From an uncultured Lachnospiraceae bacterium (GTDB lineage Bacteria; Bacillota; Clostridia; Lachnospirales; Lachnospiraceae), in NCBI GenBank assembly GCA_947626985.1, contig CANQUG010000003.1, positions 1 through 64,000 of the forward strand: DNA of 64,000 nucleotides, in the 5' to 3' direction. A program made the position numbers and the translations under genes. Under the pieces are notes generated by a model. The model searched no databases and was not told the DNA's origin. It was given only the letters and a program-made list of their open reading frames with translations. Each line of letters starts with the position of its first letter. Position 1 is the stretch's first letter. Positions 11,171 through 31,805 of this stretch are shown here, piece by piece.

Positions 11171-11806
11171 TTACCCTATGTATTCAAAAAAGACAAGTGT
11201 CGCGGCGACATTTACGATATCTTTGAGACCGATTTCTTCTTTTCGGTTTCTGCCTTTCTTCGGGGGACTTTCTCCCTCCTCCAGCCACCACAGAACGGCG
11301 TCAGAGGGGGACTTTCCTTCCGTCCCTTTCTGAATTGTGATACTCAGATCATCCAGCATGCACCGGTAGGGACTGTCATGAAGCCTCTGAAGGATCTTTC
11401 TGGCGGATTCATAACCGCTGCTCCGGAAATTCAGGGATATGTCCCGGCGTACGATTCTCTCCTCCTCCGCTTCCTTCACCGAGGTAAAGTTCAGGGAGTA
11501 ATCCTCTGTGTCAGATAACACGGAATTCAGCCGGAGCATGACGTTCCGGGCATTGTCAAAGGGGGCCATGCTCACGGGATCCTGTTCGCCGGCAAAAAGC
11601 TCCTGCAGTTTTTGCTCCATTTCCTCCATACGGGTGATTCGTACCCGGTCAGTCTGGATCCTGGTCTGCGTTTCCTGAATCTGTTCCTCCAGGGAATTCT
11701 GTTTTTCTGTGACGGGTACGAAAAACCAGAGGTAGTAGCCGCTGGCTAAGACCAAAAACAGAAGGATAGTCAGGAGCGCCGCTTCACGGCTGGTCAGTCT
11801 TCTCAT
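11171..11806 (-). CDS. pilO: PilO-like type IV pilus inner-membrane protein
   Basis: 211 aa, short N-terminus, one TM (ILLFLVLASGYYLWFFVPV) plus coiled coil; follows PilM/PilN-like genes. Confidence 0.7.
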   Translation of the reverse strand: MRRLTSREAALLTILLFLVLASGYYLWFFVPVTEKQNSLEEQIQETQTRIQTDRVRITRMEEMEQKLQELFAGEQDPVSMAPFDNARNVMLRLNSVLSDTEDYSLNFTSVKEAEEERIVRRDISLNFRSSGYESARKILQRLHDSPYRCMLDDLSITIQKGTEGKSPSDAVLWWLEEGESPPKKGRNRKEEIGLKDIVNVAATLVFFEYIG

Positions 11807-12536
11807 ATGGTTTCTCCTCCCTGTTCTCTTTCTGCAGAGAAATCTGGATATCGGCGGTCACATAGGTGCCGTTCGTTTTTTGTTTTCCGGATTTTCTGAC
11901 GGAAGTATTTTCTGCTTTATCTGTTTTCCCATTCTCTCTTTTGTTCTTTTTGGGGGATGTTCCTGAGCCGACTCTTCTGTCAGGTCTTTGATCTGTCCCT
12001 GAGCCGCTTCCTCTTTCGGTCCGACTTGTATTTTTATTCTCTGCCACAGCAGTATTTACAGTTGTTCCGTCAACCAGAGGAGACGTATTCAGTTCCCGGA
12101 TAATGTCAGCCGTCTCTCCTAATGTCACCCCGGAAAATCTGACATTCACAAGACCATCTGTCACAGAAACGGATGAAATACTGGCTGAAGGTTTCACCTT
12201 CTCGTCCAGGAGCTGCAGAATCTCCATACGGTCCGTCCGGCCTTCTTCCTCCTCAGTGGCGGAATACATCCGATATTGACGAAGTATTTCATCATAATTT
12301 TTCAGCCGCGATTCGCAGGCGTCACATTCCTGCTGGACTCTGCTCAGCTGCTCTTCCGTTTCTTCCAGCTTCAGGAGCAGATCATAGACAAACAGCTTCC
12401 CGAAGCCTGCCAGCAGCGTCAGCACGAAGAGCACATACAGCGCCACGGTAGCCGGCTTAGTGGTTCGGTCCGGTTTATAGTACAAATTCATTGTCGTTTT
12501 ATCAGGGCAGGTATCTCTTTTCTTTCTTTTTGACAT
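11784..12536 (-). CDS. pilN: PilN-like type IV pilus assembly protein
   Basis: 250 aa; single N-terminal TM, coiled coil and small alpha/beta domain (SASISSVSVTDGLVNVRFSGVT); position between pilM and pilO. Confidence 0.7.
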   Translation of the reverse strand: MSKRKKRDTCPDKTTMNLYYKPDRTTKPATVALYVLFVLTLLAGFGKLFVYDLLLKLEETEEQLSRVQQECDACESRLKNYDEILRQYRMYSATEEEEGRTDRMEILQLLDEKVKPSASISSVSVTDGLVNVRFSGVTLGETADIIRELNTSPLVDGTTVNTAVAENKNTSRTERGSGSGTDQRPDRRVGSGTSPKKNKRENGKTDKAENTSVRKSGKQKTNGTYVTADIQISLQKENREEKPYEKTDQP

Positions 12537-12621: not shown

Positions 12622-13638
12622 TCAGGAGCGTCCTCGCTTCTGTTCAGCATACCGAACTATTCCCGCGGCAAGAATGCCTTTGGCAGCAGTCTCAGGATCC
12701 ACAGACGTCTCCGGCAGCAGTTCCTCCAGGGGAAGGACCGGCAGCCCCACCATATCCTGAATTCTCTCCCGAAGCTGCAAAATAGAGGCTCCTCCTCCTG
12801 TAAGATACATCCCGCAGAGCTGGCTGTCCCGATAATTGAACTGGTAAAAATTTATTACCTTCAGAATTTCCACGGTAATGTTCTGGCAGATCTCCAGACA
12901 TTCCGGACTGTTCATTACATCCCGGTAGTTTGTATATTTGTAGGAGCTTGCCAGAAAAGGGTCCGTATTCAGCATATCCGCAATGACAAGGTCTATTTTC
13001 CCGCAGCCGAATTCAATCTGCCGGGCCGCCTGAATCCGATTTTTTTTTATTACCGTAATGGCAGTGGAATTCTGTCCCAGGTTTATGAAGCAATATTCTT
13101 CCGGGCCGCCGGGGTGAAGCTTCCGGCAGTTTCCTGCCAGATGAATCAGAACCGCCTCCGATGGAAGGAGTGTCTTCAGCTTCAGGCCCGCGCCGGAAAA
13201 AATCCGGAGATATCCTGCGATGGTTTCTTTGGCAGTCACTGCCGCGATCATGGTCATCTGTTCTTCTTCACTATCCGGTACAGTTTCTTCACACATGGCA
13301 TAATCACAGAAAAAACGGTCCGGGTCCCCCTGGATAAAGTCGCTGAATTCGTAAGGGAGGTTCAGCATCAGCTGCTCTCTGGTCATTCTCGGCATGGTGA
13401 GAGTCCGGCAGATTACCTGTCGTGCAGGAAGGACCAGGGCGCATTCTCCTTTGGGGATTTTCAGTTTTTTCCGTTCTTTTTTAAGGAATAACGAGAAGGC
13501 GTTGGGCATGGTGATCTCTCCGTCCTGAATCATGTTGTCCGGCAGGCGGATTTCGTGAATCCGGGTTTGTCCTCCGGACAGGACGGCGATCTTCATGCTG
13601 CTGTTTCCTATGTCAAATCCAAGTCTGGTTCCGGGCAT
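12622..13638 (-). CDS. pilM: PilM, actin-like type IV pilus assembly ATPase
   Basis: LGFDIGNSSMKIAVL, FINLGQNSTAITVIKKNRI, GMYLTGGGASILQLRERI; SD aaggagg before ATG at 13638. Confidence 0.9.
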   Translation of the reverse strand: MPGTRLGFDIGNSSMKIAVLSGGQTRIHEIRLPDNMIQDGEITMPNAFSLFLKKERKKLKIPKGECALVLPARQVICRTLTMPRMTREQLMLNLPYEFSDFIQGDPDRFFCDYAMCEETVPDSEEEQMTMIAAVTAKETIAGYLRIFSGAGLKLKTLLPSEAVLIHLAGNCRKLHPGGPEEYCFINLGQNSTAITVIKKNRIQAARQIEFGCGKIDLVIADMLNTDPFLASSYKYTNYRDVMNSPECLEICQNITVEILKVINFYQFNYRDSQLCGMYLTGGGASILQLRERIQDMVGLPVLPLEELLPETSVDPETAAKGILAAGIVRYAEQKRGRS

Positions 13639-13687
13639 TGGGGGATCCTCCTTAAAGGTGGTATAGTGTAGCCGGGTACTCAAAAAT

Positions 13688-14488
13688 TCACGCAATACTG
13701 CATTGCCAGAATATTGCGGTATACCAGTCTATGACAGGCTGGCCGAAGAACAGGATGAGAAGCACGGATGTCGCGATATATGGCGCAAAAGGGATATGCT
13801 CCCTTTTCAGTTTTCGTTTTTGAATAAGTCCGCCTGCGATTCCCAGCAGACAGGCCGTCAGGAGAGTAAGGAGCATCTGTCTCCAGTTCAGGTAAAATCC
13901 CAGGGCAAAAAACAGTTTTATGTCGCCGCCTCCCATGGTTTCTTCTCCCTGGATGCGGTCCATGATAAGGGCGAGAAGCAGCAATGGGAGGGAGACTGAC
14001 AGTGCGCTCACTGCAAGGAGAGGGAGCCTGGTCAGCGGATTGGGCGAGAGTATCAGGAAGATCAGGCGGGTGACAATGGCGGAGGCTAATACATAGTCCG
14101 GAATAATGTACTGCAAATGGTCTGTGAGGCTGAGGAAATGGAGATGGGCTGTAAAAATGAGCCACATAATCCATTCTTTTGTGAATCCGAATTTCATGGT
14201 GAGTGCAGCGCAGATGAATGCTCCGGCAAGTTCGGATATCAGGGTTTCTAGGGGAATTTTCGCTCCGCAGTAACGGCAGCGGCCGCGGGCGGCGAGGTAA
14301 CTGAAGATGGGAATCAGGTCGCGGGGGGACAGGGTGTGGCGGCAGGTTTCGCAGTGGGAGCGGCCTTTCCAGATGGGTTCTTTATGGGCTGCCCGCCAGG
14401 CAAGGCAGTTCAGGAAGCTGCCCAGGGAAGCGCCCAGAAGAAACATAATAGGGGTGAAAGATATTGCAAGGGAATTGGAGTCGTACAT
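13688..14488 (-). CDS. pilD: Prepilin peptidase (A24 family)
   Basis: GASLGSFLNCLAWR, C4 motif CETCRHTLSPRDLIPIFSYLAARGRCRYCG, MGGGDIKLFFALGFYLNW. Confidence 0.95.
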   Translation of the reverse strand: MYDSNSLAISFTPIMFLLGASLGSFLNCLAWRAAHKEPIWKGRSHCETCRHTLSPRDLIPIFSYLAARGRCRYCGAKIPLETLISELAGAFICAALTMKFGFTKEWIMWLIFTAHLHFLSLTDHLQYIIPDYVLASAIVTRLIFLILSPNPLTRLPLLAVSALSVSLPLLLLALIMDRIQGEETMGGGDIKLFFALGFYLNWRQMLLTLLTACLLGIAGGLIQKRKLKREHIPFAPYIATSVLLILFFGQPVIDWYTAIFWQCSIA

Positions 14489-14976: not shown

Positions 14977-15124
14977 GGAAGTCGCAACACTCCGGTGAAC
15001 TAATCGCTAACTGCGACTAAGACGCTCAGGAAGAGCCTTCGCGCCTAAGTCTCCGTAAGCGCTGGATTTCACCTCCGCTAAAAGCGCGACTTAAAACTCC
15101 GCCCGACGGTCATCCCCAATCCTG
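14953..15124. repeat. 172-bp foldback (inverted repeat) element with nested stems
   Basis: CAGGATTGGGGATGACCGTCGG (14953-14974) and its perfect reverse complement at 15103-15124; nested AAGTCGC/GCGACTT, GGTGAA/TTCACC, CGCT/AGCG, GACTAAGACGC/GCGCCTAAGTC. Confidence 0.85.
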
Positions 15125-15267
15125 TCTGCTGTATTTTCAGCCAAACTTTCATGGTTTGGGTTGTTCACTTATTAAGTGCAGCGAAGTGAGAAGCCGGCAT
15201 TCCTCCAAAAAATGTAAACAAAGTAAGGGGTATACCGACAGGTCAGCTGCATGATTTTTCGCCTGAC

Positions 15268-15311
15268 AGTTTTTATCTGGCGATCTTTTTCAGATCGCCA
15301 GATAGAAAAAC
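15268..15311. other. Strong hairpin downstream of the major pilin gene
   Basis: TATCTGGCGATCT-tttttc-AGATCGCCAGATA perfect 13-bp stem extended by GTTTTT/AAAAAC. Confidence 0.6.
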
Positions 15312-15363
15312 CGTATGTCTTTACCTTCATAAAACCTATTCAGAAACTTGTTTCCGCTTATTC

Positions 15364-15828
15364 TTATATTTCTGTGCCATGAGTTGCAGCGTTAGGAGTA
15401 TTCTGTCCATCTTTATTAACCCATTCAATCGTTACAATGCCATTTTCAGTCACATTTACTTTGATATACATATCCTTGTGGCCCTTGTCTTTGGTGCACT
15501 TTCCATATGGCTTTGAAATATCACCCGCATCTTTGACTATTTCCCCATTAACCGCGTCATAAAAATAATCCTGGGTTGTATACGGTACTTCCCCTGGTGG
15601 ATCAGCATTGGCCATCCCCGGCAGAGTCTCCGAAAGGTACCCCACTGTCGCCGCCGCTTTCGCTGCGCGTTCATTGGCGGCGTCCGTAGCCACTCTTGTT
15701 TTTTCCAGAGAGGTGTTTACCAGCGGTATGGATACCGCTACCAGAATTGCTATAATCGCCACAACGATCAGCATTTCAATGAGAGTAAATCCTCCCCGGG
15801 CTCTGAGCTTTTTTCTGAAATTTTCCAC
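15364..15828 (-). CDS. pilA: Type IV major pilin (prepilin-type N-terminal methylation motif)
   Basis: KKLRARGG^FTLIEMLIVVAIIAILVAVSIPLV; GTG start at 15828 preceded by aaaggagggagaaaga. Confidence 0.92.
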   Translation of the reverse strand: MENFRKKLRARGGFTLIEMLIVVAIIAILVAVSIPLVNTSLEKTRVATDAANERAAKAAATVGYLSETLPGMANADPPGEVPYTTQDYFYDAVNGEIVKDAGDISKPYGKCTKDKGHKDMYIKVNVTENGIVTIEWVNKDGQNTPNAATHGTEI

Positions 15829-16138
15829 TCTTTCTCCCTCCTTTCCTATGATATTTCCTCTGGTATCCCGACGCAGGATAAGAGCCTGTGTGTTCCGGCG
15901 TTCAGTATGCCTGCGGCCCAAATGGCAGAAGCATCTTCTTCAGGGTGCGGAAGATTTGTTCCGCAGTATCTCTGAAGGGCTTCGTACGCCGGGCTATGGT
16001 GATACCGGAGGATTGTAAGTTTGTTGTATCAGCAGAGTTTTCGGTTCAGGCCGGTTTGTCTCTGCTGCCGCAGGTGCGGTGAACGGATCGGCCCGGGTCA
16101 GGGCTGGTCCGCTACAACCGGGTGATAAGTCCGCCGGT

Positions 16139-17362
16139 TCAGATGGCGCTGTACATACTGAACATGGGCAGGTACACCGCGAGAAGAATTACGACTACGA
16201 TGCCTGCAAGCATCAGAATGATGATGGGTTCCAGCATGGAGAGGGCCCGGGCTGTGGCGGTGTCCACCTCGTTGTCGTAATATTCCGCCATGACTTCCAG
16301 GGTATCTTCCATGGAGCCGGTGGATTCTCCGATGGCGGTCATCCTGACCAGCATTTCCGGCAGGTCCCGGGAACGGCTCATACATTCTCCCAGGGACTGG
16401 CCGGCCTCCACACCGCTGATGGTATCCAGCACAGCCCGGGACATGGCGTAGTTGGTCATGGCCCGGCCGGAGACCTCAATCGCCTGGAGAATGGGCATTC
16501 CCGCTGCAAGCATGGTAGTCATGGTGTGGGCAAACTGGCTTGCTCCCGCCATGGCGCCGATTTTTCCCACCACAGGGAGGGAAAGCTTCAGACGGGATAT
16601 TTTTAGTCGTCCCCGGGGCGTCCGGCCGTAGATATGCAGCAGAAACAATGTCCCGGCGACCGCGAGAACGATCGCCACAAAATATGTGGTAAAATAATTT
16701 GAAACAGCAATAAGAAGTTTCGTCACTGCCGGAAGCTGAATCCCCATAGAGGCGAAAGTTTTGGAAAACGTGGGAACGGCATAGAGCATGATGATTCCCA
16801 CCACAACCACGGCGACAGCGATGACAAAGGAAGGGTACATCAGAGCGCCGGACGCTTTGGATCGGATTTTGTACATGCGGTCATAATATACACTCATACG
16901 GGAAAAGGCGCTTTCCAGATCTCCGGATTCCTCGCCGGAACGCACAGTTTCGATGAACGTTACGGGCAGCTTTTTGCCCCTCTGGGCCAGACTGTAGGAA
17001 AGACTCCAGCCATTGGAGACATCCTCGGACACCTGTCGGAGGATTCCGGCCAGAAGTCTGTCCTGTGTCTGGGAAGCCGTGAGGTCCACTGCCTGTACCA
17101 GGGGAAGTCCCGCTTTCAGGATAATGGAAAACTGGCGGCAGACCAGGGACAGTGCCTTGCTGTCCACCTTTCGTAAAAAAATCATTTCTTCTTTGACGGA
17201 TTTTTTTACCTCTCTGACAGAGAGAACCATATCGCAGTTCTGACGGATCAGAGCAACCGCCTCGGTCCGGCTGGATGCTTCCACCACTCCGGCGACACGT
17301 TCTCCGCCGGTATAAGCTCCTTCATAATAGTAAGCGGGCAAATTTCTTCCCTCCCTCTTCAT
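16139..17362 (-). CDS. pilC: Type II secretion F / PilC platform protein
   Basis: FSIILKAGLPLVQAVD, MTTMLAAGMPILQAIEVSGRAMTN, AIGESTGSMEDTLEVMAEYYDNEVDTATARALSMLEPIIILMLAGIV. Confidence 0.95.
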   Translation of the reverse strand: MKREGRNLPAYYYEGAYTGGERVAGVVEASSRTEAVALIRQNCDMVLSVREVKKSVKEEMIFLRKVDSKALSLVCRQFSIILKAGLPLVQAVDLTASQTQDRLLAGILRQVSEDVSNGWSLSYSLAQRGKKLPVTFIETVRSGEESGDLESAFSRMSVYYDRMYKIRSKASGALMYPSFVIAVAVVVVGIIMLYAVPTFSKTFASMGIQLPAVTKLLIAVSNYFTTYFVAIVLAVAGTLFLLHIYGRTPRGRLKISRLKLSLPVVGKIGAMAGASQFAHTMTTMLAAGMPILQAIEVSGRAMTNYAMSRAVLDTISGVEAGQSLGECMSRSRDLPEMLVRMTAIGESTGSMEDTLEVMAEYYDNEVDTATARALSMLEPIIILMLAGIVVVILLAVYLPMFSMYSAI

Positions 17363-17383: not shown

Positions 17384-18508
17384 CTAATTGGTCAGTCCGT
17401 AAATTCCGGCTTTCAGTTTTCCTCTGGTTTTCGGCTCCGCGCCGCCGGCTGCCGACTTTTCCAGCGCAGGATCCCGCAGAGCGGAGCGGAATGTTTCCCG
17501 GGAGATTTCCCCGTTTGCCAGAAGGTTCTGGAGAGCCCGGTCCATGAGTATATTTCCCAGATTTCCTGTCGTCTGGATGCTGTTGGCAATCTGGGGAGTC
17601 TTTCCCTCCCGAATCAGATTACGGATGGCGCCGTCTGTCTTCATCACTTCGCAGGCCAGCACCCTGCCCCTGCCGGATTTCCTGGGCAGAAGCTGCTGGG
17701 ACATCACCGCCTTCAAAGTCATGGAAAGCTGCAGACGGATCTGCTGCTGCCGCTCCGCCGGAAAGACGTCTACAATACGGTCGATGGAATCCGCCGCCGA
17801 GTTGGTGTGGACCGTCCCAAATACCAGATGCCCCGTCTCCGCCGCGGTCAGCGCTGTCTCGATCGTATCCAGGTCCCGCATCTCTCCCACCAGGATCACA
17901 TCGGGGTCCTCGCGAAGAGCGGCCCGCAGCCCGGCGGGAAAGCTTCTGGTGTCTCTGCCGATTTCTCTCTGATTGATGACGCATTTCTCCGGAGTATATA
18001 TGTACTCCACAGGATCCTCCAGCGTCAGAATGTGTTTGGTCTGAGTCTGATTAATGTGGTTTAAAATGGACGCCAGGGTGGTGGATTTCCCCGATCCGGT
18101 TTCCCCGGTAATCAGCACGATCCCCTGATTGTACCCGGGAAATTCCTCCGCCACGGGAGGCAGGCCCAGCTCGCTCATCCCCGGAATTCTGTCGTTCAGA
18201 AGACGGATGGCCGCGGAATAATGCCCCTGCTGCAAAAACACATTCAGCCTGCAGCGGACGCCCCCAACGGTCAGCGCAAAATCCTGTTCTCCCACCTCAT
18301 TCAGCGCGTCAAACTTTGCCCCTGTCAGTTCTCTGGCAAAGGCGGCGCATGTTTCCTCTGTCAGTTTTTCCTGCGAAGCATCCCGCAGGCTTCCGTCCAC
18401 CCGGTATCTGGGCGGCAGTCCGCATACGAGGTGTATATCCGATGCTCCCTCCCGGTATGCTCCCTGAACCAGTTCCGTAATTGTCATTTTGTTCTGTCCT
18501 CCATTCAA
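17384..18508 (-). CDS. pilT: Type IV pilus retraction ATPase PilT
   Basis: GLVLITGETGSGKST-type Walker A (GIVLITGETGSGKSTTLASILNHIN), LREDPDVILVGEMRDLDTIETALTAAETGHLVFGTVHTNSA. Confidence 0.95.
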   Translation of the reverse strand: MNGGQNKMTITELVQGAYREGASDIHLVCGLPPRYRVDGSLRDASQEKLTEETCAAFARELTGAKFDALNEVGEQDFALTVGGVRCRLNVFLQQGHYSAAIRLLNDRIPGMSELGLPPVAEEFPGYNQGIVLITGETGSGKSTTLASILNHINQTQTKHILTLEDPVEYIYTPEKCVINQREIGRDTRSFPAGLRAALREDPDVILVGEMRDLDTIETALTAAETGHLVFGTVHTNSAADSIDRIVDVFPAERQQQIRLQLSMTLKAVMSQQLLPRKSGRGRVLACEVMKTDGAIRNLIREGKTPQIANSIQTTGNLGNILMDRALQNLLANGEISRETFRSALRDPALEKSAAGGAEPKTRGKLKAGIYGLTN

Positions 18509-18533: not shown

Positions 18534-20231
18534 TCACAGGCCTATCATTCGTCCGATCTCCTCCGAAGTGGTTGTCCCGTCCAAAAGCAGTTCCCGGCAG
18601 TTTTCCATAATGGAACGAAAACCGGAATGCTTCACGGCTGCCTCCATGGCGTCCCTGTCGTTTCTGTGAATGGCGCGCCGAAGCTCTCCTGTCATGGTCA
18701 GTATCTCAAATACGGCGATCCTGCCCCGGTATCCCGTGTGAAAACAATCGTCACAGCCATCTCCCCTGTAAAAGATCCGGGGTTCTTCCTCCGAAAATCC
18801 CATCATCCTCAGTTCCTCCGGCTCCGGGCGGTAGCTCTTCCTGCAGTGAGGGCATACCCGGCGGAGAAGTCTCTGGGATATGATTCCTTTCACAGCTCCG
18901 GCCGCCACATAGGGCTCCACCCCGATATCCAGAAGACGGTCAATGGAAGAAAGGGCGTCGTTGGTATGGATCGTGGTCAGAACCATGTGGCCGGTAATGG
19001 CGGCGCGCATGGCGATCTCCGCCGTCTCCCCGTCGCGGATTTCCCCGACTGCTATGATATCCGGATCCTGCCGCAGCACTGCCCGCAGAGCGCCGGCAAA
19101 GGTCATTCCCGTCTTCTCATTGATCTGAACCTGGCAAACTTCGTTCATGTGATACTCGACAGGATCCTCCAGTGAAACCAGATTTTTCGTTTCACTCTTC
19201 AGCTGATCAATGATGGTGTACATGGTGGAGGTTTTTCCCGAGCCCGTGGGGCCCACGATCAAAATGGCGCCCTCCCTCACCGTATCCAGAATCTGCTGAA
19301 ACTGCTTTCTGGCCTCTCCGCGAAGCCCGATCCCCTCCATGGTGATCAGCTCGGGGGCCTTTCTCAGAAGACGAATCACCATTTTTTCTCCGTAAACCGT
19401 AGGAATGGTAGCAATCCGCAGATCAATATGTTCCTGACGGACAGTGACGCCTGCGTGACCGTCCTGTGGAATATTCCTCTGGGCAATATCCAGATGAGAC
19501 ATGATCTTCAATCTGGAGATCACGGAATTTTCCAGTTCTCCGGGCACGCTGAGCACCGGGCGCAGCATACCGTCGATGCGCATCCGGATATTCATCTGGC
19601 TTTCCCCGGGCTCCAGATGAATATCGCTGGCCTTCTCCGTACAGGCCCTTTCGATAATGGAATTTACAAGACGGATGGCCGGAGCCGCATCGCTGCTTTC
19701 ATCATCCACCGCCACTTTTTCCGGCCCGGTTCCCACAGCGGGGACGCTGCTCTGACTGCTCAGCATATCCCGCTTCAGCTCTTCGATGGCCCGGGCGGCT
19801 CCCTGATTGCTGTACAGATTATGAACCGCCCGGTTCACCGCCGCCATGGTGGTGATCATGGGAATTACATGGCGTCTGGTTATGGCCGCCACTTCCTCCA
19901 CCGCCATAAAATTCAGGGGATCCGCCATGGCCAGATAAACCTCTGTTCTGGTGGCCTTTACAGGAACCACCATATATTTCCTGGCGACGCTCTTTGGCAA
20001 AAGCCGGGCCATTTCTCCGGAAATCTCACAGGAGTTCAGATCTATGTACTCTACTCCCAGCTGTGTGGTCAAAGCTTCGATCAGCTGCGTCTCCCGGATG
20101 ATTCCCCGTTCAATGAGCAGCGTGCCCAGACGCTGCCCGGTCTCCTTCTGCAGAGCCAGAGCCTCCTCCAGCTGCCGCTCCGTAATGACTCCGCTCTTTA
20201 CCAGCAGATCTCCCAGCCGGATGTACTTCAT
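18534..20231 (-). CDS. pilB: Type IV pilus extension ATPase PilB/GspE
   Basis: N-terminal MshEN-like domain; GAILIVGPTGSGKTSTMYTIIDQL; LRQDPDIIAVGEIRDGETAEIAMRAAITGHMVLTTIHTNDA; Zn motif CPHCRKSYR...CDDC. Confidence 0.95.
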   Translation of the reverse strand: MKYIRLGDLLVKSGVITERQLEEALALQKETGQRLGTLLIERGIIRETQLIEALTTQLGVEYIDLNSCEISGEMARLLPKSVARKYMVVPVKATRTEVYLAMADPLNFMAVEEVAAITRRHVIPMITTMAAVNRAVHNLYSNQGAARAIEELKRDMLSSQSSVPAVGTGPEKVAVDDESSDAAPAIRLVNSIIERACTEKASDIHLEPGESQMNIRMRIDGMLRPVLSVPGELENSVISRLKIMSHLDIAQRNIPQDGHAGVTVRQEHIDLRIATIPTVYGEKMVIRLLRKAPELITMEGIGLRGEARKQFQQILDTVREGAILIVGPTGSGKTSTMYTIIDQLKSETKNLVSLEDPVEYHMNEVCQVQINEKTGMTFAGALRAVLRQDPDIIAVGEIRDGETAEIAMRAAITGHMVLTTIHTNDALSSIDRLLDIGVEPYVAAGAVKGIISQRLLRRVCPHCRKSYRPEPEELRMMGFSEEEPRIFYRGDGCDDCFHTGYRGRIAVFEILTMTGELRRAIHRNDRDAMEAAVKHSGFRSIMENCRELLLDGTTTSEEIGRMIGL

Positions 20232-20265: not shown

Positions 20266-20811
20266 TCAGTCAAAACCGCTTCCGTCTCCCTCGTTCAGAC
20301 AGCGCACCTGAAATTCGGCTTCAGCCCTGAAAAGATCTTCCCGGGCGTCTCTGACCTTCATAACAAAGGTAAACACCGATGTGTCCTTATCATACCGGAT
20401 GCCCGGATTCCCGCTGCCGTCTTCCAGCGCTATTCCGTAGATTCCTCCTGCGCCGTAAACACCGGAGGGAAGAAGGGGCAGATCGTTCCCCACAACATTT
20501 ACGGCCAGCTGCTGCTCCTCATTGACCCTGATCTGCGTATAGGGGCCAAAATTACAGCTTAAATACTGAAGAACCCTTCCGTCCCCGTCCGTTTCCACAT
20601 CCCTGGCCATACGCAGTTCACCGGCCACAGTGTCCGCGGCCGTGGACAGCAGCAGCTGTGCTTCCGCCTCGGACATCATCGTATGGCAGGCTTTCAAAGC
20701 CAGATGAAAACCCGTATTCATCATAAGGCTGAACAGGATCATGACAGCCGTGGCCGCCAGAAGCTCCACAAGAGTGGTGCCTTTCTGGCAGCGGAGTTTC
20801 ATATTCCACAT
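20266..20811 (-). CDS. Minor pilin, prepilin-type N-terminus (GspJ-like)
   Basis: CQKG^TTLVELLAATAVMILFSLMMNTGF class III signal with Glu at +5. Confidence 0.75.
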   Translation of the reverse strand: MWNMKLRCQKGTTLVELLAATAVMILFSLMMNTGFHLALKACHTMMSEAEAQLLLSTAADTVAGELRMARDVETDGDGRVLQYLSCNFGPYTQIRVNEEQQLAVNVVGNDLPLLPSGVYGAGGIYGIALEDGSGNPGIRYDKDTSVFTFVMKVRDAREDLFRAEAEFQVRCLNEGDGSGFD

Positions 20812-20837: not shown

Positions 20838-21188
20838 TCAGCCAAAATCCGACGGAGAAAGTTTATAGGAATAAACCCCGTGGCCGCCGAAGCAGATTAC
20901 CTCCGGTTCGGCCGTAATTCCGGGATTTTCTTCCAGAATCACCTTCACTTTCTCCTTTTTCGGAAATCCTTCTTCATTCATTGCGGCCGCTTTATCCTGC
21001 ACCTCCGCCTCAGCCAAACTTTTATAATAATCCCTGTCATTTTTTTCCCCGCTGTCGTCCATGCGGGCGGCGGCAGCAATGAAAGTCAGCAGAAGTCCGA
21101 AAGATAAAGAACCGACCAGAACAGAAGCCAGCAGTTCCAGGAGAGATTCTCCGCTGTTACGCATCAGTTTCATCCTCAGCTTTTTCAT
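20838..21188 (-). CDS. Minor pilin-like protein (GspI/PilV-like)
   Basis: RNSG^ESLLELLASVLVGSLSFGLLLTFI; Glu at +5; in T4P operon. Confidence 0.65.
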   Translation of the reverse strand: MKKLRMKLMRNSGESLLELLASVLVGSLSFGLLLTFIAAAARMDDSGEKNDRDYYKSLAEAEVQDKAAAMNEEGFPKKEKVKVILEENPGITAEPEVICFGGHGVYSYKLSPSDFG

Positions 21189-21251: not shown

Positions 21252-22007
21252 TTATTCCTCATTCTTTTCTGCACCGGTAATCCATCCAAGCCTCAGCTTC
21301 ATGGAAGTGCTTTCATTGACGCTGTTTTTTCTCAGAGCGCCGTCGTCAATATGGGGAGCCGTATCCTCCGGGGTCAGCTCCGCATTCATTTCGTATTCCC
21401 CGAACTGCTCTGCCCGGCCGTATTCCGGAGGAACCTCCGCCAGAACGGCAGACAGGTTCATATCGTAATCATTCTGAACCGTCACGGTGATTTTTACCTG
21501 AAACCCGCTCAGTTCCTCCAATTCCGGTATAATCGTCAGCGTTCTCGGAACATTCCGGGCATCCGTCTCCGGCAGGATCACGTACTCCCACTGGTCCAGA
21601 TCCGGATGATCCGGCCTCCAGGGTTCCTTTTTCAAATACTCCCCAAACAGAGCGTCAAAATTGGGGAGAAAGAATTCCTCCAGTCTGCAGTCCCATCTCC
21701 CCTGCTGCTGTGTGAAGATGTGGGACTTCCGCTCCAGGTTCTGCCCCTGAGGCACGATGATTTCTTCCCGATACTCATACTGTCCGTAATAAGGCACACT
21801 TGTCAGATCATCCGTTACCATCTTTAAAGCAGAGGATAACGCCAGATAAACCTGCTGCTCCTGCTGATTGCTCCGGATTTTTCCTGCATGGGAGGAGGCT
21901 GCCATCAATATGGAAGCCCCCGCCATCATGCAGACCTCCAGAAACAGCATCGCCAGAAGTATGGAAGCTCCCCGCTGACTTTTCAGTTTTCTGTTTCTTT
22001 CTTTCAT
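21252..22007 (-). CDS. GspK/PilX-like minor pilin lacking Glu+5
   Basis: KSQRG^ASILLAMLFLEVCMMAGASILMAASSHAGK; no Glu at +5. Confidence 0.65.
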   Translation of the reverse strand: MKERNRKLKSQRGASILLAMLFLEVCMMAGASILMAASSHAGKIRSNQQEQQVYLALSSALKMVTDDLTSVPYYGQYEYREEIIVPQGQNLERKSHIFTQQQGRWDCRLEEFFLPNFDALFGEYLKKEPWRPDHPDLDQWEYVILPETDARNVPRTLTIIPELEELSGFQVKITVTVQNDYDMNLSAVLAEVPPEYGRAEQFGEYEMNAELTPEDTAPHIDDGALRKNSVNESTSMKLRLGWITGAEKNEE

Positions 22008-22046: not shown

Positions 22047-25000
22047 CTAAAAAAACGGGGAATCCTGAAAATCGGGGATGGTTTCCGAAGCAGGGATATT
22101 TCCATCCGTAATGCCGCCATTATATGGAACATCCTCATGGTCCGGAATCTTATCAGCCGAATCGGCATTTGCATCGGGAACCGTATCGCCGTCCGGAGGG
22201 ATACTCTCATTTGGATGGACGTTTTCATCCGGAAAAATATTCTCATCTGGAAAAATATTCTTATCTGGAGGAAGTTTCTTATCTGGATAGATATTTTCAT
22301 CCGGATCATACCCGGAATCCGGATCCGGAGGAACATTCTCATCCGGGTCATACCCGGAATCCGGATCCGGAACTTCCGGAATAATATCCGGGTCCTTATC
22401 CCCGCTCAGGCGTGAATGATATACGGAAACGTCCACATACACGGTTTCCGTAAACCGCGCAGAACCGTAAGAGAACATGATTTCCATCTGGAGGGCCGTT
22501 TTTCCTGCCTTCATCCCTTCTACGCTTAAAATCCCTTCCCCGGTTCTCCTCACATAGGCAATGGCGGGATTGGTGCTGATGCATCGTCCAAAGGCGGGAT
22601 CTTTCACTTCCACAGGCTGGCCGTCCAGCAGGAATATAAAATTATCCCAGCCGTAATCCTTTTTCTTCTCCTCGTCCAGATAAATTTCCAGTTCTTTCCC
22701 CTTCAGTTCAAAGGTGCGGATCACAACATTGACTGTGCTGACGCCCTCATACCTTTTCCCCTTATAGGAATACTCATACTCCAGAATCAGAGAAGCGGCG
22801 CCAGAGCGCTTTCCCTTTACGGAAAGCACGCTGTGGCAGGGCTCCAAGACAGGATTTCCCTTTTCATCCTTCGCCTGCCCGACTTCACCTGCGGAAATAT
22901 ACGCCGTATCAAAAATTACCTTGTTTACCCGGACTTCCCCGATTTCCTGACGGAGTCTTCCATTCAGCGGACGAAGCTTTTCGTCAAAAGCATACAGACC
23001 AATGCCGGATTCTTTCCCGGCAAAGAGGAACGTTTCGCTCCCGGAAATTTCATATTCCGCAGAGCCGTATTCCGCAGGGCTGTTTCCTGCTGCCCCGTAT
23101 CCGGACGCCTTGTCTCCTGCCATCCCGTATCCTGCAGTTTCATCTCCTGCCGTCCTGTATCCGGCCGCCTCGTATCCTGCAGTTTCATCTCCTGCCACCC
23201 CGTCTCCGACTGCTTCGTCTCCGGCAGTTGCATTCCCTGCCGCCCCGTATCCGGACGCTTCGTCTCCGGCAGTTGCATTCCCTGCCGCCCCGTATCCGGG
23301 TGCCTTGTCTCCCGTACTTGTCCTGACACCCGGCAGATACTGAAGGACAGCGGTGACATTTACAGTAATTTCCAACGGAGTAATAACAATCCTGGACTCC
23401 TCCGCAGTCTCCTCGTCAGGAGTAAAGGTCACCGTTACTTTATCCGTTCCCTGCCGGAGCCCGATAATCACAAGCTTCAGTACTCTGTCGGGATCAGTGC
23501 ATACAATGCTCTCGGACAGCTGAGACGTTTCTCCGTCCCAGGGCACAAAACCTGCAGTCACCACCTGTTCACCGAAATCAGAATTACCGCTGCCTCCATT
23601 TACAGTATCTCTATTTCCGATATCTCCATTTCCGGCATCTGTATTCCCGATATCTCCATTTCCGGTATCTGTATTTCCGGTGTCTCCATTTCCGGTACCG
23701 CCTTCGTTTTGATTTCCGGCTGACGCAACGGACACGGAAAATCTTCCGCCCCGGTAACCTCCTCTTCTCAGTTTGCCTTTCAGAATGTCTGAAAGATACA
23801 GCTCCACTTCCTTCTGAGCTCCATCTGCATAGATTACGGGACTTTTCTGTCCGACCCCGGTTCTGCGCGGTTCGCCGTTCCCAGGCAGGGTTCCGTCAGT
23901 GAAAAGAACATCCTGTTCATAAAAATTTCCGTCCGAAAATGCTCCTGCTGTCGCTTCCAGAAGTTCTCCCGCGGACGCCGCTTCCTCTTCCGTTCCCCCG
24001 GTCTTTTCCTTATAATCCGCAAAAAGATCCATATTCACCGGTATGCCTCCACCCGCCCGCTCAATTCCCTCCAGCGGCCAGTTCCCATAATGAATATTGA
24101 CCGTCCTGCCATTCTGTGTCCGCGTGCAGATCGTGGGGAATGGATAATCGCTGGCAGTGAGAAAACCGCTGGAAGCCAGACTGTACTTGCCGTTCACCGC
24201 GATCCCGTAATCGTCCGCCGTTACCCGCCGGAACTCCGGCCGGTCCGCCATGTCCGCAGGAAAGGGATTCAGCTCGCTGATAAAATCCTCCCCGGACATC
24301 CTTTCGTATCCCGCCTCCGCAATGGTTCCTTTTCCCTTCTCCTGTATCCAGTCCTCACAGACCTCCCGTATATTCTCCGGTACCAGCTCCGCCAGAAAAT
24401 AACATCCCTCAAAGCTGCTGGGAGCTCCCGCCCGCAGCTCGGCCTTTCCGCCGATCAGATACAGACTGTCCTGTTTCCCCGGCCTCGGCATATTTCCCGG
24501 CAGCTTCACGTAGCTGTAGGAATACCGGAAATCATTGGTCGCCCCGCTGTCCGCCGTAATACTGATGATATTCCGCCTTCCGGCTCTGGCGGTCAGCGGC
24601 TTCATAAAGCTTCCCCCGACGATGCCTCCCGTATGGATCCGGGTATTTTTGCTCCTCGCCTGCTCACTGATCTCAATACTTCCTCCCGCATAGCAGCAGG
24701 TGATGCTCTGCTGGCAGGAACCGGCGATTCCTCCTGCCCGCACATGTCTTCTGATATCCCCGTAGGTAAAATCAAGATCAAGCTCCGTCACGGCAGTGCA
24801 CTCTGACAGGGCCATATTGCAGATGCCGATGAGGCCGCCTACACCGCCTCCGCCGAAGCCGTGGCCGGTATGCTCATCCCTTACCGTATATCCGGCGATG
24901 GAGCAGTTCTCTATCCTGTAATCGGACGAGGAAGCGGCCGCAAGGCCCACAAGGCCGCCAATCGCATACCATCCCACATTTCCTCCTCCGGTCACCGTCC

Positions 25001-28000
25001 CCTTCCCCCCGGGAGAATAAAGGACTATATTTTTCAGAGAAGCATTCACCGTGACACCGAAGAGCCCCGCACAGCTGGCTGAATCCGACCGGATATTCAC
25101 ATCCTTGATAAGATACGCGTCACCGTCATACACTCCGCCGAACCAGCCGTACAGATCCGCGCTGGTGGTGGTGCTGGTATCTCTGAACGCCGCTATGGGA
25201 TTATACGTCTCCAGTCTTCCGTCCAGATCGTGGCTCTGCTTCCAGTAAGCCCGGTCCGTTCTGCTTCCTTTCCCCCAGGGCCAGCTTCCGGGATCCGCAT
25301 AACAAAGATAAGGGAACCGGTAAAAATTCCCGCTGTCGTAGCTGATGGCGGAACTGCTGGTCCTGTCCAGAGAATTCCAGTTGATAAACTGCAGCTGCTC
25401 CACCGACCGTATCTCATAAGGCTTCCCTTCCGTCCCCGGAGCGGCGGGATCCGCCTTCATCCCCCTCAGCGGAACTCCATTATGAAAAGCTCCCTCAAAA
25501 ACAACCGTATCCCCAAAGAGAGGGCTGAGCGCAAATCTGCAGGTTACATCCGCGCTGTTGGTAAACGACCAGACATTCCCGGGCTTCTCCCCGTTACTGC
25601 TCATAAGGATCCGGTAAGTGGAATCGGGATTTCTTACGGCGCTGCTGCAGGCCACAAAAGCGTACTCCTCGCCCACCAGAAGCTTCAGCGCCTTTTCCGC
25701 CTCCGGGTTTTCCAGATCCGCAAAGAGCCTTTCCCCTCTGTAAACGTCCTCCACCATCCACACAGGGCGATCCCCGGTGTAAAAATATCCGTATCCGTAC
25801 TCTTCGATCACGCCGCCGTCGTCATGCTCTCTGCACAGAGTATCAATCCTCGTCACATCGCCGGTATCCGTGTCTACCCGGACGGCGCTGAAATGATACG
25901 CCTGACCGGCCGCCTCCTGCTGTTCCGTATAAGCGGCTTCCTTTTCCCAGTAAAAAACTCCAAGAGCGCCCAGGGAAATGGTCTCCGGCCACTCTCCGTA
26001 ATGAACCGGCCGGTTCCTGCCATCCCGCACCACACAGGGAAAGACAAAGTTCCTCCACTGTCCGTACTCTCCCTCCGGCTGGTACCGCTTCCCGTCCCGG
26101 GCAAACCATCCTCCCAGCTTTTCCGCGGTATCTCCGTCGAAGGAGCCTCCGGTCATCTGACGCCAGTCCTGTTCCTCCGCTCCCCCGGGCACATCACTGT
26201 ACTGCGCGCTGAAGGTCTCCCCGGCATACTGGAAGTTTCCGTTATTCAGGAAATAGCAGTTTCCCGTCCTGTCCGGGCAAAATCCGAAGGCAGAAGCGCC
26301 GCCGCTGACGACCAGACTGGAAGCGGCATAGGAATTCCGGATGACATTGCCGTTGCTTCCCGCAAATCCTCCGGCCTGCACGGTTCCGTGCCTGGCCCGG
26401 GACACATGAAGGGACGCCATGGAATAGGAATTATAAATGGTGCCGCCTCCCGCATTCAGACCCGCAAACCCGCCGATATATCCGTCGGAATAATTGGCTT
26501 CCACCGTGATTCTCTTCCACACCGCCGCACAATTCATAATCGTTCCGTAATTCAGAGCCACAAGCCCACCCGCGTAAACCCTGCTGTATCCGTACGCAGA
26601 CATATGCATGCTGTCCGAGGCCACGGCACAGTTGGTGATGGTGCCGCTGTTTCCCCCGGCAAGAACGCCCCAGTACACGGTCCCGGCGTCCGTAACGGTG
26701 AGGGACAGCTTTTCCGCTTTTACAGCCGGACCTGTCTCCGTACCGTCGCCCAGCACCACGTTCCGCAGGGTTCCGCGGTTATAGCCGAACAGTCCTGTAT
26801 ACTCCCCCTCCGTATTCAGAGGAACGTTCACGATCCTGCAGCCCTTGCCGTCGTAGGTATTCCTGAAGGAATCCGCCGGATTTTTCCCGATGCTCTCCTG
26901 CTGCCGGCCCGGAAACAGGCCATAGCCGGTATAAACGTCATAATCCAGATCCAGTTCCTGAAGGAACACATATCGATTGCTGCCGGCGTAGTATTCCGCA
27001 TGCCTGCCCAGTTCATAGAGATGGCGGGGCGAACGCACCTTCACCGTCAGCTTCTCCGCCCGCCTGAGAATATCCTCCTCCGTAAGAGTACCGTCGTTCT
27101 CCAGGGCGGTCCCCGCAAAATGCGGATTGAAAAAGCAGTGAACCTTCTCCGCGGCATTTCCGATGGAAAAATCAAGCCTGCGGTAAAAATCCGGGGACGC
27201 GTCTTCCATACAGATCAGGCGGTCGGGAAGCTTCGCCAGATAATACGTCGTCTCCCCCTTTTCGGCAGGAACTCTGATCTCTCTCAGATCCTGCCTCCGG
27301 CAGGTGATCTGCTCCTGTCCGTTTTCCCCGTACCGGAAGGTAATCCTGACACTCTCCTCCGTCCCCAGAAGATCTTCCGGGAGGGTTACGGCATATCCGT
27401 CGCTGCGGACCATGGCAGGGGAATCCTTCAATGTGTCGATCCCTCCGCCGTATATACCCACATCATCGTCCCCGGCATATTCCTCCCAGTACACCAGACC
27501 TCCGGAGCGGAACATCCCGTTCCAGTCCCCGTAATGATCCATCCCGGAAAGGGCCGGATAGGGATACCTGTCCAGAGAAAGATTCCCCTGCAGATTACAG
27601 GGATGACTGCGGGATATACCGATCTGCTCAAAGGAATGACTGCCGAATAAGGTTTCCAGCGTCAGGGGCTCTCCCTGACCGCCCTGTGCTTTCGCCAGAC
27701 TCAGTTCCTCATAGTCCAGGCTCATGTCCCTCCAGGGAGTATCTTCCCCGCCATTGACATACGGCGAAAACAGATACCAGGTTTTCGTGTAGACGTCATG
27801 TCCGGCCGCCATATCATTGGAAAGGGGGAACCGGTTATCATTCAGGACCGCAGACCCGCCCGTTCTCCCGTCGGGGCTGTACGCCATGGCCGCGTAGCTG
27901 GCGTGAACGGAACCGGCAGCGGTATCCGGCGCTTCCGAAAGATATAGCCCTGCCGCTCTGCCGGCGTCATCCACGGAAATAAATCCCGCCGCGTAGGATC

Positions 28001-29708
28001 CGGAAATACTGTTGGATGTGCCTTCCGCCGTACCGATCAGGCCCGCCGCGTCCCTTCCCGTCAGGTAGCAGTCCGCGTAGGAATCCACCACGGTGATGTC
28101 TCTTCCCCGGCCGACGAGACCCCCGGCCGTTTTCTCTCCCTGCACGGTGGTGGACGCCAGGCATCTCCATATGCAGCAGTTCCTCCCCGCTCCCACCAGT
28201 CCTCCGGCACTGTCCCCGGACACCTGATAGGACGGAAGCAGATAAGCGTTTTCTTCACTGGCAGAGCCCAGCCGGTACTGCAGATCGGATTCCGCGTCGG
28301 AATCGATTTCCCAGTAAACCTGACAGTCGGTAAAAAAGACGTTTTCCGCCGCGCCGCAGAGCGCTCCCGCCGCGGCGGCCCCTTCCCCAAGGATCACGGG
28401 ATTCACCAGACGGACATGCTCCAGGTAGGACGTTTCTCCCCGGCCGAATCTGCCGAACAGCCCCACGCCGGGCTCCGCTTTGCATTCGATATAAAGATCC
28501 TGTATTTTACAGGCCCCGCCGTTGTAGGACGTCAGGTTTTCATTCACAATGGGCTGAAAATGATAGATACTTTTTTCTCCTCCGGGACCGGGCAGCGTCA
28601 CATTTCTGATATCCTCCGTCTGGACCGCCTTCGTCTTCTCCGGGCCCACATTGGAAAATCCCGGGTGCAGGTTCTGAAGGTGCCGGATATTTCCCGCCCG
28701 GGCAGTATCGGCAGTGCTTGCTTCGGCAAAAAGACTGTTGTTTTTCGCGGTCTTTTCGGCGCCGTTTACCCGGCGGGCATTCTCGGGATCGGAAGGCTCG
28801 TAGACCACCTTCGCCGTGATGGTAAAATCATTTCCCAGATCCGACCATTCTCCGGAGCCTCCCGCCTCTCCCAGATCCTTAAACTGCTGCCCCTCCTTCA
28901 GAGAATCCAGCAGATAGGTGCTGGAGCAGGTGATATAAACGGAACCGTCCTCACTGGAGGCGCTCACCCGCCCGGAAGAATCTCCGGGCTGAAAGCAGTC
29001 GCTGAGAATCAGGCTCTCGCCGCCGTAATCCAGAGTTACGATCATCCTGATATCTTCCTTCTCTCCCCGCAGGGTCTGAGGAATCCACCAGGTGATCTCC
29101 GCCCGCAGCGTCTCTTCATTTATGATATTGATCACGGGAGTGCGCAGGGTAACCGTATCCCCGACCGCAGCGGCCTCACCGCCGTAATAGCCCACCATGG
29201 GAGTCTGTCCCATGCGCTGCCGTCTGGAAGCGGCCCGCTCCCGGAGATAATATTCCAGGTCAAAGTCCTCCTGAACAGGCTCTTCGGCCAAAAACACGTC
29301 CGTGACGCTGCCGCTCTCCGGCTCATACACCACAAAGAAGCTGCCCTCCCTTAAAGCGGGCTCCACGGTTCCCCGGGGAAGCAGCTCAGACATCTGAGAA
29401 TCGCCGTTTTCTCTGTAATAGAAATACTCGTCATTCCCCAGTGACAGCCGGTTCTCCTCTCCCTCCGCAGCGACAAGGGTTTCCAGCCGGCCCCGGTTCT
29501 TCAGCAGCACGGCGCGGTTCTGAGCGGCCATATAGATCTCCCGGGCTCCGTGATCCAGCTCCGTGATCCTGAGATACTTCCTGTAGGTGGCTGCAGCCGC
29601 CCCGGAAACCGCCAGCAGAACCAGGAGCACGGCAGCCGCCAGAAGCGTTTCCGTCAGGGTAAAGCCGGCCTGTTCTCTCTTCCGCAAACAATTTTTTCTC
29701 TCCGTCAT
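22047..29708 (-). CDS. Giant modular prepilin/adhesin with GLUG-like repeats and low-complexity C-terminus
   Basis: ATG at 29708 with SD AAGGAGG; KREQAG^FTLTETLLAAAVLLVLLAVSGAAAATYRKYL; repeated GGLVG...SYA/CYA motifs; Ig-like and DPDEN-rich tail. Confidence 0.9.
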   Translation of the reverse strand: MTERKNCLRKREQAGFTLTETLLAAAVLLVLLAVSGAAAATYRKYLRITELDHGAREIYMAAQNRAVLLKNRGRLETLVAAEGEENRLSLGNDEYFYYRENGDSQMSELLPRGTVEPALREGSFFVVYEPESGSVTDVFLAEEPVQEDFDLEYYLRERAASRRQRMGQTPMVGYYGGEAAAVGDTVTLRTPVINIINEETLRAEITWWIPQTLRGEKEDIRMIVTLDYGGESLILSDCFQPGDSSGRVSASSEDGSVYITCSSTYLLDSLKEGQQFKDLGEAGGSGEWSDLGNDFTITAKVVYEPSDPENARRVNGAEKTAKNNSLFAEASTADTARAGNIRHLQNLHPGFSNVGPEKTKAVQTEDIRNVTLPGPGGEKSIYHFQPIVNENLTSYNGGACKIQDLYIECKAEPGVGLFGRFGRGETSYLEHVRLVNPVILGEGAAAAGALCGAAENVFFTDCQVYWEIDSDAESDLQYRLGSASEENAYLLPSYQVSGDSAGGLVGAGRNCCIWRCLASTTVQGEKTAGGLVGRGRDITVVDSYADCYLTGRDAAGLIGTAEGTSNSISGSYAAGFISVDDAGRAAGLYLSEAPDTAAGSVHASYAAMAYSPDGRTGGSAVLNDNRFPLSNDMAAGHDVYTKTWYLFSPYVNGGEDTPWRDMSLDYEELSLAKAQGGQGEPLTLETLFGSHSFEQIGISRSHPCNLQGNLSLDRYPYPALSGMDHYGDWNGMFRSGGLVYWEEYAGDDDVGIYGGGIDTLKDSPAMVRSDGYAVTLPEDLLGTEESVRITFRYGENGQEQITCRRQDLREIRVPAEKGETTYYLAKLPDRLICMEDASPDFYRRLDFSIGNAAEKVHCFFNPHFAGTALENDGTLTEEDILRRAEKLTVKVRSPRHLYELGRHAEYYAGSNRYVFLQELDLDYDVYTGYGLFPGRQQESIGKNPADSFRNTYDGKGCRIVNVPLNTEGEYTGLFGYNRGTLRNVVLGDGTETGPAVKAEKLSLTVTDAGTVYWGVLAGGNSGTITNCAVASDSMHMSAYGYSRVYAGGLVALNYGTIMNCAAVWKRITVEANYSDGYIGGFAGLNAGGGTIYNSYSMASLHVSRARHGTVQAGGFAGSNGNVIRNSYAASSLVVSGGASAFGFCPDRTGNCYFLNNGNFQYAGETFSAQYSDVPGGAEEQDWRQMTGGSFDGDTAEKLGGWFARDGKRYQPEGEYGQWRNFVFPCVVRDGRNRPVHYGEWPETISLGALGVFYWEKEAAYTEQQEAAGQAYHFSAVRVDTDTGDVTRIDTLCREHDDGGVIEEYGYGYFYTGDRPVWMVEDVYRGERLFADLENPEAEKALKLLVGEEYAFVACSSAVRNPDSTYRILMSSNGEKPGNVWSFTNSADVTCRFALSPLFGDTVVFEGAFHNGVPLRGMKADPAAPGTEGKPYEIRSVEQLQFINWNSLDRTSSSAISYDSGNFYRFPYLCYADPGSWPWGKGSRTDRAYWKQSHDLDGRLETYNPIAAFRDTSTTTSADLYGWFGGVYDGDAYLIKDVNIRSDSASCAGLFGVTVNASLKNIVLYSPGGKGTVTGGGNVGWYAIGGLVGLAAASSSDYRIENCSIAGYTVRDEHTGHGFGGGGVGGLIGICNMALSECTAVTELDLDFTYGDIRRHVRAGGIAGSCQQSITCCYAGGSIEISEQARSKNTRIHTGGIVGGSFMKPLTARAGRRNIISITADSGATNDFRYSYSYVKLPGNMPRPGKQDSLYLIGGKAELRAGAPSSFEGCYFLAELVPENIREVCEDWIQEKGKGTIAEAGYERMSGEDFISELNPFPADMADRPEFRRVTADDYGIAVNGKYSLASSGFLTASDYPFPTICTRTQNGRTVNIHYGNWPLEGIERAGGGIPVNMDLFADYKEKTGGTEEEAASAGELLEATAGAFSDGNFYEQDVLFTDGTLPGNGEPRRTGVGQKSPVIYADGAQKEVELYLSDILKGKLRRGGYRGGRFSVSVASAGNQNEGGTGNGDTGNTDTGNGDIGNTDAGNGDIGNRDTVNGGSGNSDFGEQVVTAGFVPWDGETSQLSESIVCTDPDRVLKLVIIGLRQGTDKVTVTFTPDEETAEESRIVITPLEITVNVTAVLQYLPGVRTSTGDKAPGYGAAGNATAGDEASGYGAAGNATAGDEAVGDGVAGDETAGYEAAGYRTAGDETAGYGMAGDKASGYGAAGNSPAEYGSAEYEISGSETFLFAGKESGIGLYAFDEKLRPLNGRLRQEIGEVRVNKVIFDTAYISAGEVGQAKDEKGNPVLEPCHSVLSVKGKRSGAASLILEYEYSYKGKRYEGVSTVNVVIRTFELKGKELEIYLDEEKKKDYGWDNFIFLLDGQPVEVKDPAFGRCISTNPAIAYVRRTGEGILSVEGMKAGKTALQMEIMFSYGSARFTETVYVDVSVYHSRLSGDKDPDIIPEVPDPDSGYDPDENVPPDPDSGYDPDENIYPDKKLPPDKNIFPDENIFPDENVHPNESIPPDGDTVPDANADSADKIPDHEDVPYNGGITDGNIPASETIPDFQDSPFF
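22170..22375 (-). repeat. Asp/Pro-rich repeats in the giant pilin C-terminus
   Basis: PDPDSGYDPDENVPPDPDSGYDPDENIYPDKKLPPDKNIFPDENIFPDENVHP. Confidence 0.8.
23050..23320 (-). repeat. 45-bp (15-aa) intragenic tandem repeats in the giant pilin
   Basis: GYGAAGNATAGDEAS/GYGAAGNATAGDEAV/GDGVAGDETAGYEAA...; DNA tctccggcagttgcattccctgccgccccgtatccgg repeated 45 bp apart. Confidence 0.88.
23580..23705 (-). repeat. Pentapeptide GNxDx repeats in the giant pilin
   Basis: GNGDTGNTDTGNGDIGNTDAGNGDIGNRDT. Confidence 0.8.
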
Positions 29709-29909
29709 CCTCTGCCTCCTTCCAGCCAGCATGGCCGCACAGAATGATCCAAAATGATTCAAAGATGAAAATGGTCCAGGATTTTTTTAAAGAATTATAA
29801 GAAAACTCTGTCTTTGGTGAATGATACGTAGTATAATAATGAACACTGGCATTTTCACAAAGATGCCGCCCAAAGTCAATAAACTATAATAAAAAGGAGA
29901 TGATTTGAC

Positions 29910-31775: not shown

Positions 31776-31805
31776 AAACGGGAGGGCGGCATTCAGCCGC
31801 CCTCC
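31776..31805 (-). terminator. Terminator overlapping the 3' end of the helicase CDS
   Basis: Minus strand GGAGGGCGGC-TGAAT-GCCGCCCTCC-CG-TTTTT. Confidence 0.75.

Follow-up and report, generated by a model that had tools for sequence, protein, structure and literature searches.

What role can be assigned to a prepilin of more than 2,500 residues that stands at the head of a type IV pilus (T4P) operon? The question is raised by a gene of an uncultured Lachnospiraceae bacterium, located in a stretch of 64,000 nucleotides (contig CANQUG010000003.1, assembly GCA_947626985.1) that was analysed at full length and is here called the window. A first-pass annotation had described a modular pilin of ~2550 aa with a class III prepilin signal, GLUG-like repeats, Ig-like segments and an acidic Pro/Asp tail, had regarded both its size and the lack of PilQ as out of the ordinary, and had proposed structure prediction and a survey of large prepilins in related genomes as checks. 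As judged from its sequence and structure models, the protein (the giant in the following) is a prepilin of a T4P operon with grafted solenoid and Ig-like modules; it likely acts as a modular minor pilin of the tip complex and as a very long adhesin, probably as the adhesive end of a retractable pilus.

The gene and its operon

The gene is read on the minus strand from an ATG at position 29708, with AGGAGG upstream, to a stop at 22047; the annotated length is confirmed by an intact frame encoding 2,553 aa, of which the mature form is computed to have 2,538 aa, 274 kDa and a pI of 4.6. A chance ORF or a pseudogene is rejected because the frame is intact and the sequence is conserved, ~1,900 residues being aligned with orthologues in other families at 34–38% identity.

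The giant is followed, in order, by a PilX/GspK-like, a second and a third minor pilin, pilB, pilT, pilC, pilA, pilD, pilM, pilN and pilO, with intergenic gaps of 21–63 bp from the giant through pilC (Table 1). Its first place in the operon, already annotated, is deduced from the divergent oxidoreductase gene upstream and from a promoter-like match at 29821–29794; the annotated gene order also holds, while the count of minor pilins was too low, the gene at 20838–21188 having been overlooked. No secretin was found anywhere in the genome by a search that gives matches in six control genomes, and the missing PilQ, considered odd at first, is therefore unremarkable, as expected of a monoderm, whose pili need no outer-membrane gate. 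Rfam elements were absent from positions 8000–32000 of the window.

Other features of the region can be mentioned separately. The second minor pilin (20838–21188) carries the motif G^E[ST]xxE, with Glu at +1 and +5, which is unusual for a pilin and common to many relatives beside giants. The 875-bp gap between pilA and pilD (14488–15364) contains a 65-bp unit repeated 5.7 times (14561–14929) and a 27-nt inverted repeat (14953–14979 / 15098–15124), and a hairpin directly after pilA (15270–15308) may limit read-through. Outside the pilus operon, another very large protein, of 1,711 aa and with a weak fibronectin type III match, is encoded at 51875–57010. Positions 35159–36886, which lie upstream of the pilus region, encode a subtilase of the spore germination protease family, whose prodomain is of the CspB type.

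Table 1. Features of the giant prepilin gene and its operon (positions in the window)
Feature	Position	Strand	Evidence and remarks
Giant modular prepilin gene, 2,553 codons	22047..29708	-	ATG with AGGAGG, single open frame
Leader peptide MTERKNCLRKREQAG, 15 residues; predicted PilD cleavage after G15	29664..29708	-	N_methyl; residue 16 falls on the first mature residue of solved pilins
Pilin module (residues 16-170) with a long alpha helix at 18-71 and beta strands behind it	29199..29663	-	AlphaFold2 model; E20 invariant
Beta-sandwich carrier domain, residues 171-335	28704..29198	-	AlphaFold2; conserved G173, N197, L201, D268
Solenoid module 1, residues 336-760, RHLQN to HYGDW	27429..28703	-	AlphaFold2 model; Foldseek best matches IgA1 protease chains
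Solenoid module 2, residues 931-1260, end HYGEW	25929..26918	-	Best GLUG matches
Solenoid module 3 and cap, residues 1441-1905, HYGNW at 1873	23994..25388	-	GLUG; model; many invariant columns in 14 orthologues
Ig-like domains, residues 1906-2435, with low-complexity spacers; tandem repeats 23085-23299, 23594-23697	22404..23993	-	Model, Foldseek
Acidic Pro/Asp tail (residues 2436-2553), lacking LPxTG and a C-terminal TM	22050..22403	-	Sequence; repeat at 22225-22305
PilX/GspK-like (K-like) minor pilin, no Glu at +5	21252..22007	-	Conserved beside giants
Minor pilin, Glu at +1 and +5	20838..21188	-	I-like by position
Minor pilin	20266..20811	-	J-like by position; N_methyl
pilB, extension ATPase	18534..20231	-	T2SSE 2.9e-120, MshEN 2.4e-18
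pilT, retraction ATPase	17384..18508	-	T2SSE 4.9e-49; pilT by homology and position
pilC, platform protein	16139..17362	-	T2SSF 2.7e-56
pilA, major pilin	15364..15921	-	N_methyl 1.4e-07
pilD, prepilin peptidase	13688..14488	-	A24_N_bact 7.2e-27, Peptidase_A24 1.9e-13
pilM	12622..13695	-	pilM 9.1e-29
pilN-like	11784..12536	-	Position, homology to relatives
pilO-like	11171..11806	-	GspM-like 0.00014; homologues in equivalent place in relatives
Promoter-like site TTCACC-16-TATAAT, 86 bp before the ATG of the giant	29794..29821	-	Consensus match only, 10/12
Oxidoreductase gene (flavin reductase, rubredoxin-like), divergent, upstream of the giant	29910-31706	+	

The prepilin signal and the pilin fold

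The N-terminus has the features of a class III signal, namely a basic leader, Gly at -1, a hydrophobic residue at +1, Glu at +5 and a hydrophobic helix; in particular, the leader is followed by FTLTE and then by the helix, giving the cleavage motif G^FTLTE in a prepilin motif that spans residues 11–34. The whole-genome scan returns four N_methyl matches, every one inside the T4P operon, and that of the giant reaches 25.2 bits, above the Pfam curated cut-off; with hmmscan, run on the protein alone, the score is 18.1 bits, just under the cut-off of 21.2 bits. A profile of the carrier region from 26 relatives matches the mature N-termini of solved type IV pilins (8pfb PilE1, E = 1.8e-9) in a register that places residue 16 of the giant on mature residue 1. 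Glu+5 (E20) is invariant in the alignment of 26 relatives, at least 90% of which retain Gly at -1. Since the pattern search for prepilins forces both residues, its counts at these positions are uninformative, and the unforced evidence is given by this alignment and by a check of the members that do not match the pattern. The signal with Glu+5 that had been annotated is thus sustained by the N_methyl match, the alignment and the match to solved pilins.

The AlphaFold2 model shows a 54-residue N-terminal helix (18–71) and strands from residue 87, corresponding to an extended pilin helix and a beta sheet. This helix is the only hydrophobic segment of the giant, in which neither an LPxTG motif nor a C-terminal transmembrane segment or anchor was found; a sortase-anchored adhesin is rejected, LPxTG, transmembrane segment and basic tail being all missing at the C-terminus.

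Modules grafted on the pilin

The structure models of the giant have a mean pLDDT of 72–73 and are confident in parts only. That of residues 1–760, built from 28 sequences (mean pLDDT 72), comprises the helix 18–71, a small beta sheet, a beta-sandwich to ~325 and a regular beta-solenoid from RHLQN (342). Three solenoid modules are closed by the motif HYGxW, at residues 725, 1236 and 1873. The top Foldseek matches for the solenoid model are Gram-positive IgA1 proteases (E 6e-5), in keeping with the GLUG motif; low-TM matches were disregarded as noise. Four of the five GLUG matches in the whole genome fall inside the giant gene, the best cluster being barely at the cut-off, and a Pfam scan of the protein at E 0.05 reported N_methyl alone, missing GLUG (IPR011493, which we take to be the GLUG entry), so that orthologues, whole-genome scan and fold are used as evidence.

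Towards the C-terminus, the model of residues 1400–2440 contains the third solenoid (pLDDT ~90), a cap domain and Ig-like domains split by low-complexity stretches, and its top Foldseek matches include Ig-like domains from PrgB and from S-layer proteins. None of the domains recognised in the giant is a ligand-binding domain with a known specificity. Spacers and tail are encoded by DNA tandem repeats, for which reason their length may differ between strains. The repeats and Ig-like segments described at first are thus recovered by the whole-genome GLUG scan, the models and Foldseek, and the tail in the sequence; the structure prediction proposed at that time returns a pilin helix, a beta-sandwich, solenoids and Ig-like domains.

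A family of giant pilins

The N-terminal 430 residues of the giant were used as a carrier profile, which gave an extended match in 43 of the 298 genomes of the host's taxonomic family, and in 35 of the 43 (table count) the matching frame has 1,400 codons or more; this is the outcome of the proposed survey of large prepilins. Over 399 genomes of the phylum, a near full-length match outside the host's family was obtained in only three (G794, G583, G737). Complete members have 764 to 7,662 codons, and the size of the giant, taken as extreme by the first-pass annotation, is mid-range in a family of ~760 to 7,662 residues.

In the gene maps of relatives from many genera, a prepilin that has the same carrier and the RHLxN motif stands amid T4P genes, and giants occur in two T4P lineages, with PilB 53–57% (66% in one) versus 36–45% identical to that of the window. 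A search with PilT as query identified the full-length orthologues whose alignment is given above (2,159–2,271 codons; L173, L179, L184, L185), which belong to Oscillospiraceae and other Clostridia MAGs and have the same solenoid endings. The same search gave a relative of 1,058 codons in Parafannyhessea umbonata, which we take to be an actinobacterium, and, in the cultured [Clostridium] asparagiforme DSM 15981, a related prepilin of at least 1,494 codons that lies close to pilT and runs off the stretch end. A single-sequence word search for related loci with the whole giant protein gave no match, the method being too strict; three genomes (G020, G044, G113) were excluded from the family, their GLUG-region matches lying in long proteins with no recognised prepilin signal.

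Across 14 further loci from the close T4P lineage, identity to the window is 70–83% for PilT and 64–72% for PilB; it is 23–50% for the parts of the giant, as for the minor pilins, and the Ig region and tail of the giant are hardly alignable. This rapid divergence would fit an exposed binding head.

As a separate observation, PilT (70–83%) and PilB (64–72%) of the operon are nearer to those of Oscillospiraceae MAGs and of one Acetatifactor MAG than to the proteins of genus members, whose PilB is at most 57% identical to that of the window, and this suggests that the whole operon was acquired by transfer. For the flanking helicase gene (31793–33934), too, close matches are missing from most of the genus, so the contig or the genus may alternatively be misplaced.

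Association with the pilus machine

T4P genes adjoin almost all the giant relatives examined. Of 60 genus members, 16 have a full PilB, and 7 of these show the extended carrier match, which is absent from all 44 genomes without PilB (p = 3e-5; one of the seven has a partial match, and without that genome p = 1.6e-4). Of the 48 ORFs whose first 700 residues contain RHLxN, 47 retain the prepilin signal, which was recognised by pattern in 46 and by eye in one that has a leader of only 8 residues (G086). In the lone exception, a protein of 1,430 codons (G185, L161:4459-8751), carrier and solenoid sequence are kept and the cleavage motif is replaced by a plain membrane helix; no PilB was found in its genome and no T4P genes were seen on its stretch. 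A signal that serves the machine is expected to be lost in genomes lacking that machine, as in this single case.

The same relative, membrane-anchored with neither prepilin motif nor PilB, indicates that the ectodomain may work pilus-free, and a protein of this length could conceivably span the cell wall alone; the giant might then be a membrane-anchored surface adhesin whose pilin helix serves as an anchor or builds a short pseudopilus, and which is not carried on long pili. This explanation is unlikely, however, in view of the near-universal retention of the prepilin motif, the place among minor pilin genes and the co-occurrence with PilB.

Position in the pilus

A tip-borne giant could operate as follows. 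The N-terminal helix would insert the protein in the membrane with its large domain outside, and PilD would cut the leader after G15; the giant would then assemble with the K-, I- and J-like minor pilins, whose genes follow its own, into a pilus-starting tip complex, which PilB and PilC would drive out across the cell wall through polymerisation of PilA underneath. The three beta-solenoids and the Ig-like domains would form a long acidic stalk that stands out from the tip and binds a surface or a ligand, and retraction by PilT would pull on the bond. The giant most likely fills one of the four places in the tip complex; the other three pilins resemble K (which lacks Glu5), I and J by position, and H would be left to it by elimination.

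The tip reading is favoured by the absence of an anchor besides the pilin helix, by the T4P neighbours, by the co-occurrence with PilB and by signal retention, and the placement itself draws on a steric argument and on precedent. A point against it is the presence of two giants in one T4P locus in several genomes (G243, G134), which needs two slots or alternative pili. The steric argument bears on an insertion of the giant into the shaft, as a decoration of the filament: Glu+5 is present and would allow a further subunit above the giant, the solenoids may be joined by a flexible linker, and a shaft position for modular pilins is left possible in PMC8179133, but a helical shaft is unlikely, on steric grounds, to accommodate a subunit of 274 kDa, as was argued for the far smaller ComZ (PMC6561018), and we regard this arrangement as quite improbable. 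A pilus-borne enzyme, for instance an M26-like protease, is suggested by the GLUG solenoids of IgA1 proteases, which are the top Foldseek matches, and by a match to the M26 N-terminal region in one relative, but is very improbable, and M26 protease function is rejected, since the HExxH zinc motif is absent from all collected giants and the window's giant has no match to an M26 or other catalytic domain. We infer that adhesive tip display is the best reading of the giant.

The largest members and the cell wall

The largest member is a prepilin of 7,662 codons (G238, L144:10578 to L145:13566) encoded beside pilA, pilT, pilB and pilD; the tandem giants of G243 have 3,220 (L057:3603-13265) and 3,165 codons (L057:13706 to L058:3203). 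The C-terminus of the G238 giant bears two murein hydrolase domains, NlpC/P60 (4.9e-15) and Cell Wall Hydrolase (1.4e-13), which were not found in the other giants scanned, some of them over the last 1,000 residues only; a weak LGT match in the same protein was treated as noise. The passage of T4P across a thick wall has been named as an open question (PMC6916266), and the hydrolase-bearing tip of G238 is a candidate for wall crossing in that species only, where the question becomes directly testable. A broader conjecture, to which we give a low probability, is that gut Clostridia have a class of T4P that chiefly carries and reels in one enormous, fast-evolving tip fibre (760 to >7,600 residues), equipped in some species with murein hydrolases that open peptidoglycan; if true, these enzymes would open the wall of the pilus's own cell or that of a neighbour, with a bearing on how pili cross the thick monoderm wall.

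Comparison with known systems

Modular pilins are established in other T4P systems (PMC8179133), as the first-pass annotation had stated, and the giant corresponds to their definition, with an N-terminal pilin module and modules that are not T4P-specific (GLUG solenoids, Ig-like); the latter would serve T4P-mediated adhesion. These proteins are discussed as being of ~50 kDa, and a case of 860 residues was singled out as extreme in domain number (PMC8179133, PMC6916266). No paper describing giant prepilins or GLUG pilins was found, which is weak evidence, as most subscription papers lay outside the search. As far as our searches show, the size range, the conserved carrier with its RHLxN boundary, the repeated solenoids that close with HYGxW, the widespread presence at T4P loci in gut Clostridia and the giant with hydrolase domains appear to be new. 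Subunits 3 to 9 times longer than the 860-residue case are routine in T4P operons of common gut anaerobes; they probe the upper size of the cargo from which a T4P machine can start, provide a candidate tip adhesin for gut commensals lacking PilY1 and allow a conserved carrier to be compared with a fast-changing head.

A prepilin signal combined with IPR011493 appears to be already listed in PMC8179133 as the architecture IPR012902-IPR011493, the second module being read there as an M26 peptidase, whereas the giants examined here have no HExxH. The Gram-positive IgA1 (M26) proteases share the GLUG-type beta-helix fold; the giant differs in having a pilin carrier and no protease domain. PilC/PilY1 of diderm T4P resembles it in its probable role as a large modular effector at the pilus tip, but is not a pilin and is defined by a C-terminal beta-propeller, none being detected in the giant by the Pfam scan.

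ComZ of Thermus thermophilus is likewise a pilin carrying a beta-solenoid and is argued to cap the pilus tip (PMC6561018); it has 554 residues and one solenoid of ~380 residues inserted in the pilin fold, whereas in the giant repeated solenoids come after a second beta-sandwich, the first starting near residue 335, behind this separate domain, in the AlphaFold2 model. A likeness in organisation is also seen to PilB and PilC of Streptococcus sanguinis, which belong to a monoderm T4P with minor pilins encoded together and no PilY1, and have a class III signal with Glu5 and adhesive modules after a small pilin module. They are modelled at the tip (PMC8179133, PMC9934059) as open wings on a complex that is capped by K-type subunits without Glu5 (PMC9934059). 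In contrast, PilB and PilC of S. sanguinis have ~50 kDa and one or two known domains (vWA; lectin and Ig), and the giant has 274 kDa, three solenoids and Ig-like domains.
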